Below are positions 3,175-44,381 of a stretch of DNA of 44,386 nucleotides, piece after piece (positions within the stretch are counted from its first letter, which is position 1; the number at the start of each line of letters is the position of its first letter). The position numbers and the translations under genes were made by a program. The notes beneath the pieces are model-generated. The model saw only the letters and a list, made by a program, of their open reading frames with translations, made no database searches and had not been told where the DNA came from. The stretch comes from Flavobacteriaceae bacterium (GTDB taxonomy: Bacteria; Bacteroidota; Bacteroidia; Flavobacteriales; Flavobacteriaceae): assembly GCA_021648265.1 (NCBI GenBank), contig JAKITD010000015.1:1-44386 (forward strand), in the 5' to 3' direction.

Positions 3175-3207
3175 AGACCTACTAGGTTTTTAAAACCTAG
3201 TAGGTCT
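3175..3207. terminator. Perfect 16-bp inverted repeat between convergent genes (bidirectional terminator)
   Basis: Arm AGACCTACTAGGTTTT, central T, then the exact reverse complement. The T-run and A-run inside and beside the arms allow termination on both strands. It lies between the SRPBCC stop (3167) and the birA stop (3214). A second copy, differing only in the central base, lies at 43079-43111, so it is also a dispersed palindrome. Confidence 0.7.
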
Positions 3208-7985: not shown

Positions 7986-8625
7986 AGAAGGATTTAAAAT
8001 AATAACAATTACTTTTTTAATCTTTGCTATTCTAAGTCTTAGCACAAAGTATTTAGTTGAAAATAACTGGATTGAAAAGGGAATTTTAATCGTTTTATTT
8101 ATATTTTTATTTCTTATTCTTCAATTTTTTAGAAATCCAAAACGTAATTTCAAACTAAACAACAAGGAAATTTTATCACCTGTTGATGGAAAAGTAGTAG
8201 TAATTGAAGAAGTTTTTGAAAAGGAATATTTTAAAGACAAAAGATTGCAAGTTTCTGTTTTTATGTCGCCTTTAAATGTTCATATAACGAGATATCCTAT
8301 TGGCGGAAATGTTGTTTTTAGTAAATACCATCCTGGAAAATTTTTAGTTGCTTGGCATCCAAAATCTTCAGAAGAAAACGAACGCACTACTGTTGTAGTA
8401 AAATCTACAGAGTTTGGAGAAGTTTTGCATCGCCAAATTGCAGGAGCTGTTGCTAGGCGAATTGTAAATTATGCTGAGGAAGACCAAGATGTAGTACAAG
8501 CATCAGATAGTGGTTTTATAAAATTTGGGTCACGTGTAGATATTTTTTTACCTTTAGGGACAAATATTAATGTAAGTATTAACCAAGTTGTAAAAGGAGG
8601 AATTACTGTATTAGCACAAAAATGA
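7975..8625 (+). CDS. psd: Phosphatidylserine decarboxylase proenzyme, short (archaeal-like) type
   Basis: A 216-aa protein that decarboxylates phosphatidylserine to phosphatidylethanolamine. The N-terminus has two hydrophobic segments (about 10-25 and 36-51), followed by SPVDGKVV, the HITRYPIGG core, and FGSRVDIFLP near the C-terminus. The Gly-Ser of FGSR is the expected self-cleavage site giving the pyruvoyl group; the chain after it is short, as in the family. Its ATG lies inside the end of cdsA and its TGA overlaps the next ATG (ATGA). The location next to cdsA fits one phospholipid pathway. Confidence 0.95.
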   Translation: MFHKEGFKIITITFLIFAILSLSTKYLVENNWIEKGILIVLFIFLFLILQFFRNPKRNFKLNNKEILSPVDGKVVVIEEVFEKEYFKDKRLQVSVFMSPLNVHITRYPIGGNVVFSKYHPGKFLVAWHPKSSEENERTTVVVKSTEFGEVLHRQIAGAVARRIVNYAEEDQDVVQASDSGFIKFGSRVDIFLPLGTNINVSINQVVKGGITVLAQK

Positions 8626-8888
8626 CATCCGAAGAACTCGAAATCGTATTCAGAAAATCTGTAGCTAGTGTCAATGCACACAAGGAACCTTTTCCTGCGG
8701 ATTTGTTATTGCGTTTGTACTCTTTTTATAAAGTAGCAACAAACGATCAAGATACACCAAACAGTAGAATACCATTAATAAATGCATTTAAAACAAATGC
8801 GTTGTTTCAAGCACAAGGTCTAACTCCAGACGAAGCAAAAATTCAATATATAGAATGTGCTAAACATTATTTTTTATATAGAAAATAG
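8622..8888 (+). CDS. Acyl-CoA-binding protein (ACBP)
   Basis: An 88-aa all-helical protein of the ACBP family, which binds long-chain acyl-CoA in the cytoplasm. Visible family features are the acidic N-terminal helix (LEIVFRKSVASVN), LLLRLYSFYKVAT (the family's LxLYxxYKQAT), and the C-terminal helix where DEAKIQYIECAKHY replaces the usual EEAMxxYI. The central FxxKAKWxAW block is diverged (NAFKTNALFQAQG), so ligand affinity may differ from eukaryotic ACBP. The 4-bp overlap with psd suggests a link to lipid synthesis. Confidence 0.85.
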   Translation: MTSEELEIVFRKSVASVNAHKEPFPADLLLRLYSFYKVATNDQDTPNSRIPLINAFKTNALFQAQGLTPDEAKIQYIECAKHYFLYRK

Positions 8889-20120: not shown

Positions 20121-20138
20121 CTCCCGACGCTTCGGGAG
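20121..20138. repeat. Small palindrome shared with the CRISPR repeats
   Basis: CTCCCGACGCTTCGGGAG has 7-bp perfect arms and a 4-nt loop. It differs from the palindrome inside CRISPR repeats R1-R4 (TCCCGATGCTTCGGGA plus a following G) by one base over 17 shared bases. It lies between lipA and gap, 39 bp before the gap ATG. It lacks a T-run, so it is a poor intrinsic terminator. Confidence 0.75.
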
Positions 20139-41832: not shown

Positions 41833-43040
41833 CTTAGTACATGACAAAAATATAATTCACTAATTTTCAGCAAATTAAGTGTTAAAAAATTAGAATAAAG
41901 CATTGATTTTCAGTATATTAGATGAATAATTCGACTTATTTTTCTAATGAAGAAAACCAATGCAGTCACTAAAAATAGTGAATTAATTTCAGTTCTGAAC
42001 ACTCATTTACAAGGTAAAATTAATTTAGCCCGATTAAAGCTCATTTCTCACTTTGTCATTGCTTTGTGCAAAGTACAAACAGTTACTTTTGAAAAACTTG
42101 CTAATGCCTTTGATTCCCAATCCAATTCTGATTCCTCCTTGAGGCGTATACAGCGATTTATAGCAGGCTATAGTTTGGATTCTGACCTTATTGCTCGTCT
42201 TGTTTTTAATCTTCTTCCTACCCAAGGCAAACTCATTTTAAGCATTGATAGAACCAACTGGAAGTTTGGACAAACGAACATTAATATTTTTATGCTCGGT
42301 GTAGTTTATAAGGGTGTCGCCTTTCCTTTATTGTTTACCATGCTTGATAAAAGAGGGAATTCTAATAGTGAGGAACGGATCGATTTAATCAATAGATTTA
42401 TCCGTCTTTTCGGAAAAGATTTATTGAATCCGTTGTTGCTGATAGAGAGTTTGTGGGTAAAGACTGGTTAGCGTTTTTAAACAGAAATGAGATTCGATAT
42501 TACATTCGTATCCGTAATAATTTCAAGATATTTCTACCGCACAAAAACAAAGAAATCAAAGCATCTCACTTGTTTAATCGACTTAAAACCAATGAGTTTG
42601 TGTATTATCATAAAATTGTGAGAGTAAATGGACAACTATGCTATTTGTCAGGTTGTAAACTCAATCCAAAGAACTTAAAACAAGAATTTTTAATCATCGT
42701 ATCATTTAATAAACCTGAAAAGGCACAAGAAGACTATCAAAAAAGATGGCAAATTGAAATGTGTTTTAAGGCAATGAAATCTAGTGGGTTTGATATTGAA
42801 AAAACACATCTACAAGATATTCAAAGAATAGAAAAATTGATTTTACTGGTTATCATAGCCTTTGTGTGGTGTTATAAAATTGGAATCTATTTGCATCAAA
42901 TAAATCCAATCACAATTAAAAAGCACGGTAGAAAGGCTAAAAGTATTTTTAAATATAGGCTAACCTTTGTAGCGAATGTCTTGTTAAACTCTGAAAATCA
43001 AAACAATATTGATATATTTAGTTTTTTGTCATGTACTTAG
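41833..43040 (+). mobile_element. IS4-family-like insertion sequence, 1208 bp, intact ends
   Basis: The 18-bp terminal inverted repeats are CTTAGTACATGACAAAAA on the left (41833-41850) and CTAAGTACATGACAAAAA on the right (43040-43023, minus strand), with one mismatch. Immediately outside both is the 9-bp direct repeat AAATTTTAC (41824-41832 and 43041-43049), an exact target-site duplication. Its size fits the IS4 family. The single transposase frame ends exactly in the right inverted repeat (stop TAG = last three bases). Perfect flanking repeats mean the insertion is recent. The transposase is frameshifted. Confidence 0.93.
41947..43040 (+). pseudogene. IS4-family transposase with a -1 frameshift
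   Basis: Two adjacent frames together give one DDE transposase of about 364 aa. The first part (41947 onward) holds the N-terminal region and the first catalytic Asp in LILSIDRTNWKFG. The second part is in the -1 frame and holds the second Asp in VVADREFVGKDW and the IS4 signature Y-2-R-3-E-6-K in YQKRWQIEMCFKAMK with the catalytic Glu. The frames cross near 42411-42424, in GGAAAAGATTTATTG, where one missing T would restore a normal protein. No classical slippery heptamer is in the right phase. It is a fresh inactivating deletion, a sequencing error, or less likely a programmed shift on AAA. Confidence 0.88.
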
Positions 43041-43245
43041 AAATTTTACTTAAAAGAAAGCCTTATGTATGTGTTTACAGACCTACTAGGTTTTAAAAAC
43101 CTAGTAGGTCTAAATTCCTAAATCAAAACCTACTGAGGAAGGAATCTAAAAATAAGCCACCCACTACAAACAACATAGAACCATTAAAAATGGGTAGTCG
43201 TAAGCTTTTACTATTTATTTCATTTTACTATAAAAAAAAAGATTG
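43041..43245. other. Gene-free stretch between the IS and the CRISPR array
   Basis: 205 bp: the right target duplication (43041-43049), a 33-bp perfect palindrome (43079-43111) and about 130 bp of AT-rich sequence without a credible reading frame. No cas gene, no match to an anti-repeat and no obvious promoter is present. It borders the degenerate end of the array. Confidence 0.8.
43079..43111. repeat. Second copy of the AGACCTACTAGG palindrome
   Basis: Arms AGACCTACTAGGTTTT and its exact complement around a single central A. It is identical to 3175-3207 except for the central base (T there), which makes it the same element in inverted orientation. The preceding ACAG is shared too. Here it is not between convergent genes, which favours a dispersed repeat over a gene-specific terminator. 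Confidence 0.75.
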
Positions 43246-44381
43246 ATTGTATTTTTACTTAGCATTCGCAGTCTTGTTTTTATTTTCATCTTTCGGTTTA
43301 ATGTTGTGAATTACTTTCAATCCCGATGCTTCGGGAGTATTTTTACTTAGCATTCGCAGTAATGAGATAATAGAAGTGATTGAAGACTTAGTTGTGAATT
43401 GCTTTCAATCCCGATGCTTCGGGAGTATTTTTACTTAGCATTCGCAGTCATGGGAAAAATTTTAAGCAAAATTACATGGTTGTGAATTGCTTTCAATCCC
43501 GATGCTTCGGGAGTATTTTTACTTAGCATTCGCAGTACCGAAATTTGGTAAGCATCTGATAATGGGTTGTGAATTGCTTTCAATCCCGATGCTTCGGGAG
43601 TATTTTTACTTAGCATTCGCAGTAAAGATTCACTTTGTTAGAAATGAATACTGGTTGTGAATTGCTTTCAAAATTGTATTTTTACTTAGCATTCGCAGTT
43701 AATCCCTTTATCTGTTGATAACCCTGTAGTTGTGAATTGCTTTCAAAATTGTATTTTTACTTAGCATTCGCAGTCAACGTTATAAACATATCTCTTTCGT
43801 TTCCGTTGTGAATTGCTTTCAAAATTGTATTTTTACTTAGCATTCGCAGTTGGGAAGATGGCAACAGCTATAGATGCACGTTGTGAATTGCTTTCAAAAT
43901 TGTATTTTTACTTAGCATTCGCAGTAAATGCTTTTTTTAGTATTTATCACCCTTTGTTGTGAATTGCTTTCAAAATTGTATTTTTACTTAGCATTCGCAG
44001 TGGATTATGATGCAGGAAACAATGTTGGTGTGTTGTGAATTGCTTTCAAAATTGTATTTTTACTTAGCATTCGCAGTTAAAAGCGCCACGCAGGTTGTAG
44101 GGCTACAGTTGTGAATTGCTTTCAAAATTGTATTTTTACTTAGCATTCGCAGTATAGCTAGAGAAGTTGCTGAAGCTTTTATAGTTGTGAATTGCTTTCA
44201 AAATTGTATTTTTACTTAGCATTCGCAGTAATAGCAATTGGCGTATATATAGCTTCGATGTTGTGAATTGCTTTCAAAATTGTATTTTTACTTAGCATTC
44301 GCAGTTTGAGCATTCATTACTATCGGTAGCTTTTCGTTGTGAATTGCTTTCAAAATTGTATTTTTACTTAGCATTCGCAGT
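43246..44381 (+). CRISPR. CRISPR array, 15 repeats, type II-C-like dimensions, no cas genes in window
   Basis: The 46-nt repeat begins GTTGTGAATTGCTTTCAA and ends TTAGCATTCGCAGT. R0 is a 27-nt 3' fragment (43246-43272). R1-R4 are 58 nt and carry a palindrome (43303-43360, 43391-43448, 43479-43536, 43566-43623). R5-R14 are the plain 46-nt form (starts 43654, 43729, 43805, 43880, 43956, 44032, 44108, 44184, 44260, 44336). The fourteen spacers are all different and 29-30 nt long. Repeat length, the GTTGTGAATTGCTTTC start and spacer size match Bacteroidota type II-C (Cas9) arrays, which is why I suggest that type. Five bases follow R14, so the array may continue. The truncated repeat and the mutated R1 (G to A at position 11) mark the left side as the degenerate end. 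Confidence 0.97.
43303..43623 (+). repeat. Block of four CRISPR repeats carrying an inserted palindrome
   Basis: In R1-R4 the four bases AATT at repeat positions 19-22 are replaced by TCCCGATGCTTCGGGA, making each repeat 12 nt longer. The flanks are unchanged: GTTGTGAATTGCTTTCAA before (R1 has one change) and GTATTTTTACTTAGC onward after. The insert can form a 6-bp stem with a 4-nt loop in RNA or DNA. The same 17-bp word with one base changed occurs at 20121-20138. All four copies are identical, so they come from one event followed by copying. Confidence 0.95.

Follow-up and report, generated by a model that had tools for sequence, protein, structure and literature searches.

How does a single CRISPR array come to hold repeats of two lengths, the longer ones standing together in one block? 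The window, by which we mean the whole 44,386-nucleotide stretch of DNA analysed here, lies on contig C81 of a Flavobacteriaceae draft genome (112 contigs, 2.83 Mb); an array occupies its right end, and the contig stops inside that array, five bases into a spacer. Four consecutive repeats on the forward strand between 43303 and 43623, R1 (43303-43360), R2 (43391-43448), R3 (43479-43536) and R4 (43566-43623, the last long one), are 58 nt in length. In each of them the hairpin sequence TCCCGATGCTTCGGGA (43321-43336, 43409-43424, 43497-43512 and 43584-43599, respectively, with no strand assigned) stands where the 46-nt form has AATT. The other 33 complete repeats of the genome, found on C81 and a second contig, C70, are all 46 nt long. 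Both the run of four enlarged repeats lacking AATT and the presence of two repeat lengths in the array are as given in the original prediction, which had also called R0 and R5-R14 plain. This is right for R5-R14, ten 46-nt repeats with AATT and 29-30-nt spacers that occupy 43654-44381 of the forward strand up to the contig end. R0 (43246-43272, forward strand), the leader-distal terminal repeat, is truncated to its 3' 27 nt with a plain core, ATTGTA, and is plain by three of the four AATT bases only.

The Rfam family CRISPR-DR50 at its gathering score matches R5-R14 (10/10) and none of the 58-nt repeats. R1 has in addition a G-to-A change of its own (GAATTACTTTC), absent from the other repeats of the genome. 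The spacers between the long repeats are of the normal 29-30 nt, S0 to S4 measuring 30, 30, 30, 29 and 30 nt. Pieces of 19-20 nt from S1, S2, S3 and S4 matched 33, 0, 0 and 1 viral contigs, respectively; over the full spacer there were 5-9 mismatches for the S1 matches and 5 for the S4 match, and we claim no protospacer for S1-S4.

The array is of type II-C as judged by the presence of cas9, cas1 and cas2, which lie on C70 together with the tracrRNA and the leader. Eight open reading frames of at least 80 aa were found in C70 40000-52101. Four were identified as Cas9, type II Cas1 (TIGR03639), Cas2 and a RAYT-like gene, with neither csn2 nor cas4 among these four family-assigned frames; the remainder comprise two upstream of cas9 and two antisense to it. 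Beside cas2 and up to the contig's own end, C70 carries 23 further 46-nt repeats, one with its first base changed, in an orientation compatible with that of C81. A genome search with the repeat gave only partial matches (E >= 0.16) outside these two contigs. The simplest reading is that C81 and C70 hold one array broken by assembly; their ends show no overlap, so the assembly may lack the array's middle part. A predicted tracrRNA antirepeat of 24 nt (C70 43451-43474) is identical to positions 2-25 of the plain repeat.

The RAYT/Y1-like transposase gene lies between cas9 and cas1 (8279-8866 of the fetched locus L012, which is C70 48278-48865), matches NF047646 (E 1e-10) and Pfam Y1_Tnp (19.3 bits), both below cut-off, and has GACCTACTAGGTTTTCAAAACCTAGTAGGTC on either side. 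No gene separates cas9 from cas1 in the four nearest relatives. The flanking palindrome occurs at 29 genome places (<=3 mismatches), with copies at window 3176-3206 and 43080-43110 and at L012 9827 and 10235; the places include the far end of the array and both sides of cas2, in the gaps towards cas1 and towards the array. Just beyond the far end, at window 41947-43040, is an IS4-family transposase in two overlapping frames that match different parts of NF033591 and appear to have been broken by a frameshift.

To read the array as a sequence of events its growing end has to be placed, and for this we used the arrays of relatives. A cas1 match (E <= 1e-30) was present in 78 of 397 family genomes, 77 besides our own, and 60 of these 77 loci were fetched. 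Eight had no array and two were dropped (one array mostly N, one a false 17-nt repeat), leaving 50 arrays. By sequence comparison the growing end appears to be the cas2/leader side, with the 3' end of the repeat leader-proximal, because the leader is similar to that of the nearest relatives, because R0 is truncated, and because published type II-C work agrees. The sequence following the cas2-side repeat begins ATATCAAGCCTTAATAATTTGATATACTGCTTGTTAAGT; at the same place TGATATACTG is common to all four nearest relatives (L041-L044) and TTAAGT to three of the four, and four short exact leader motifs were not found in the left flank of the window. A leader-distal unit without its 5' part, like R0, was seen in 23/50 relatives' arrays by a strict count; in the control, counted in the same way, one of the two units nearest the leader was of this kind in 6/50. 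A looser count gave 36/50, at least one artefact (L068) included. In L043 the terminal repeat is broken in the R0 manner. Published work places the GTTGT end of the Flavobacterium columnare repeat leader-distally, with spacers added at the leader end (PMC8092290), and type II-C work including that on Riemerella anatipestifer agrees with growth at the leader end (PMC8092290, PMC6008519). With growth at the cas2 side, R0-R4 would therefore be the oldest units, and by repeat orientation this would hold even were C81 and C70 separate arrays. Five loci (L078, L079, L080, L084 and L085) have a different leader type that starts GTCAATCC; an inverted repeat stands right where leader and repeat meet.

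This polarity upsets one part of the original prediction, namely that a changed repeat is inherited by later ones: the array grows at the cas2 side, yet R5 and all later repeats are plain. The reverse history, with a 58-nt ancestor, had been named there as a refutation, and on checking it the sequence comparison shows the 46-nt form to be ancestral and the 58-nt form derived, because AATT is present in the tracrRNA antirepeat and in the 33 other repeats, R0 retains ATT in its core, and the nearest relatives are plain. In L041-L044, whose Cas1 proteins are 79-82% identical to ours, the consensus repeat is 46 nt and none of the 116 full repeats scored deviates from this length by 3 nt or more. 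The arrays of these four thus have the plain form, and the 58-nt form was found only in our own genome of the 397, by an exact-flank family search with our repeat and any core of 0-30 nt; such a search misses near relatives with small changes, which were found through cas1 instead. Within the genus no array was found: G188 and G359, the two genomes searched there, have no cas1 match. The only match of a pattern scan that required exact letters, in a Parachlamydia metagenome-assembled genome, fell within a protein gene with no array and was put down to chance.

Hence the 58-nt form was kept for a time and then superseded by the 46-nt form, and R5 and the later repeats descend from a plain repeat. 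AATT was replaced by the insert rather than merely interrupted, therefore a simple deletion cannot restore it and recombination is required to go back from 58 to 46 nt.

Where did the insert come from? The original prediction of a dispersed palindrome is borne out. The genome has 83 places with the pattern TCCCGA-N2-10-TCGGGA and none with the reversed pattern, used as a control. When up to 2 mismatches are allowed, the window matches the insert 16-mer 10 times, at 5 places that each match on both strands, where shuffling gave a mean of 0.01, and a dispersed relative outside the array (TCCCGACGCTTCGGGA) lies at 20122-20137, no strand being assigned. The whole genome has seven exact copies of TCCCGATGCTTCGGGA, of which four belong to the array and three lie outside it; every one reads in the listed orientation.

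These sequences are best explained by one insertion and subsequent copying, in keeping with the single insertion and duplication proposed originally, because the four copies share loop and orientation, in a form found in only 3 of the 79 family members outside the array. That the hairpin inserted four times independently at the same site of four repeats we consider very improbable. In favour of it, the family is dispersed (83 places), and other arrays do have another element at one site in several repeats, as described below; against this, all four copies have in common the loop, the orientation and the exact loss of AATT, the 3/79 frequency of that form speaks against recurrence, and 0/33 other complete repeats are affected.

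The insert has no target-site duplication; 4 bp (AATT) are replaced. Short dispersed hairpins in many copies are also a feature of REP/RAYT elements, which our family (83 places by the loose pattern) resembles in this respect. REP elements carry a GTAG or CGTC tag at one end, as defined in PMC3733652, whereas those of our hairpin copies that were read in context are without it: no such tag stands directly beside the four inserts or five other TCCCGAYGCTTCGGGA copies. The genome has 13 Y1-transposase matches, none of which could be named as the mobiliser of the insert. The flanks of the RAYT-like gene on C70 lack the insert palindrome, and the transposase genes on C70 and C1 are flanked by different palindromes, CCTACTAGG/CCTAACAGG. 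A longer, insert-related hairpin, CCCGACGC...GCGTCGGG, lies near two IS200-like genes (C4 and C68), which is only a hint of a link between such genes and the insert family.

We then ask how a single insert reached four adjacent repeats. The original prediction allowed either adaptation or recombination within the array; of these we favour adaptation as the copying route, on the evidence of the 50 relatives' arrays. Here 29 length variants were counted, nearly all of them anchor matches inside spacers, and the variants were judged by eye and by an interval walk. Six arrays were flagged as having shared variants; L049 and L068 proved to be script artefacts and L048 a matter of a boundary base. 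Nearly all repeat variants are confined to one unit, and the genuine variants in at least two units (L045, L054 and L086) lie towards the leader-distal end; therefore existing repeats seem to exchange little among themselves. The variant blocks look as if the template repeat had passed through one state after another, and L045 has blocks of small changes that include a return to an earlier type.

The same data bear on the proposal of a single entry into an old repeat, from which gene conversion or template switching carried the insert into the neighbouring repeats without adaptation. The four copies are indeed adjacent, and in the relative G021 described below one spacer occurs twice in a row among long units, where recombination may act. 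Such spread would nevertheless require conversion tracts confined to one 46-nt repeat between unrelated spacers, variants common to several units are rare in the 50 arrays, and repair of hairpin breaks should, we infer, favour loss of the insert. We regard this route as improbable.

Enlarged repeats are not confined to our genome. Internal inserts in repeats were found in 4/50 arrays (L054, L061, L086 and L059), towards the leader-distal end. The clearest case is L054 (genome G021), on a single contig, which reads from the far end LLLLpppLL followed by 29 plain repeats (L, 103 nt; p, 46 nt), which makes six repeats of 103 nt and 32 plain ones; the first 14 spacers measure 29-30 nt. L061 (G351) reads LpLppL and then 13 plain repeats, with long repeats of 99-100 nt, degenerate repeats and one 76-nt gap near the far end. 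L086 (G128) has two long repeats of 104 nt and then 20 plain ones, and a 96-nt gap hides a degenerate repeat. In L059 (G173) a single unit near the far end carries two inserts, one of which contains GCTTGTCCTGAGCGCAGACGAAGGG. This last sequence may resemble a common dispersed repeat.

G021, G351 and G128 carry as their insert a related element, 53 or 57 nt in length, that follows GTTGTGAATTGCTTT (GTTGTGAATTCCTTT in G128). Its core pattern is present in 14/397 family genomes; in G021, G351, G128 and G387 it stands in CRISPR repeats, and in the ten others it is a single copy without repeat flanks. No Rfam family matches the element where it stands in the loci scanned, and it is no tRNA. In G387 (L109), at a contig end, a repeat with the same type of element lies beside an apparent array start. 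These cases are parallel to that of the window and not the same event, because the element differs from the window hairpin.

The mixture in G021 bears on whether the mixture in the window is real. An assembly artefact in a repetitive region comes to mind in a draft of 112 contigs in which both array contigs end within the array. Four identical inserts, each between unique spacers, would be an odd error, however, and the one-contig genome G021 shows the same kind of mixture, so that we give an artefact very little credence.

A stronger rival is that the array is a chimera, in which a mostly-58-nt array either traded its leader-side part with the all-plain array of another strain or was fused to such an array, the junction falling between R4 and R5. 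This would account for the single abrupt switch there with no need for conversion of a single repeat, and the nearest relatives normally have plain repeats. No other 58-nt array was found, however (only our own among 397 genomes, and no array at the contig-scan match, in searches by exact letters), and the three switches within the one array of G021 are less simply explained by exchange. We consider a chimera unlikely, though less so than the other rivals.

We therefore favour, at slightly better than even, a history in which the insert arose at the template repeat, was copied by at least three acquisitions, and the template was later rewritten to plain. The type II-C array would have begun with the truncated repeat R0 as its founder and grown in the direction of cas2. 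At an early stage, the AATT of the leader-proximal repeat, the template for new units, would have been replaced by a copy of the dispersed hairpin, and at least three further spacer acquisitions would have copied the 58-nt repeat to give R1-R4. Recombination would then have made the leader-proximal repeat plain again, with either an older plain repeat as donor in gene conversion or another strain's array as partner in exchange, and later units would be plain. Copying by adaptation, the rewriting step and the function of the RNA are the parts that we infer. There are points against this explanation. The return from 58 to 46 nt is a second event without an identified donor, R0, the only older repeat, being truncated. 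Furthermore, the order in G021 implies that the state switched three times, once back to long, for which template copying alone is insufficient; a deletion between the flanking TTT could turn long into plain there, never plain into long. The failure to find a same-genus array, the unjoined ends of C81 and C70 and the small size of the indels in the type II-A work discussed below weigh against it too.

If the long repeats were copied by adaptation, Cas1-Cas2 would have accepted a 58-nt repeat, as the original prediction supposed. The predicted cofold with the tracrRNA, whose 3' end we chose ourselves, has an energy of -57.4 kcal/mol for the 58-nt and -56.7 kcal/mol for the 46-nt repeat, and the predicted RNA places the insert hairpin above 18 bp of repeat:antirepeat pairing. 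With the two energies almost equal, the insert might be tolerated in the RNA. The window hairpin and the 53/57-nt element both lie 15-18 nt from the leader-distal border, with the leader-side part of the repeat intact. The idea that 12 bp, about one helical turn, might be favoured for reasons of helical phase is weakened by the parallel inserts being 53 and 57 nt.

A dispersed palindrome inside CRISPR repeats was not reported in the titles and abstract beginnings of the mainly open-access literature, among the matches listed. A wider reading, which we put forward as possible rather than probable, is that flavobacterial II-C arrays are recurrent homes for small dispersed elements at one tolerated position, 15-18 nt from the leader-distal border, multiplied by Cas1-Cas2 and toggled by rewriting of the template. 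If this were true the array would record successive states of its single template repeat. Repeats enlarged by 12, 53 and 57 nt beside spacers of normal size are natural tests of how Cas1-Cas2 measures a repeat. They suggest that an array can switch its repeat state and later revert, a point of importance where repeats and spacers are taken as a chronological record. CRISPR repeats can sometimes carry passengers.

The behaviour proposed here can be compared with the ruler of type II-A systems. In PMC6895254, the second integration site lies at a fixed distance from a ruler element near the far end of the repeat, and where one base is inserted to the leader side of this element the site moves by one; spurious sites appear in vitro and the unshifted site is also used in vivo. 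The indels tested there were of 1-3 nt, those on the leader side single bases only. Such a ruler predicts that a leader-side change in length is copied along, as we propose for our array, and by analogy the longer repeat would be copied whole. The II-A repeat is of 36 nt with indels of 1-3 nt, and here 12-57 nt are added to a 46-nt II-C repeat; to carry the analogy from 1-3 nt to 12 nt is an extrapolation. Closer to hand, the gene order of our locus, tracrRNA-cas9-cas1-cas2-leader-array, is that of R. anatipestifer II-C, the repeat has its GTTGT end away from the leader, as in F. columnare, and the 30-nt spacers are those of the Flavobacteriaceae type. Our locus is unlike the known Flavobacteriaceae-type II-C systems in having a transposase-like gene between cas9 and cas1 and four leader-distal repeats that are 12 nt longer through a hairpin.
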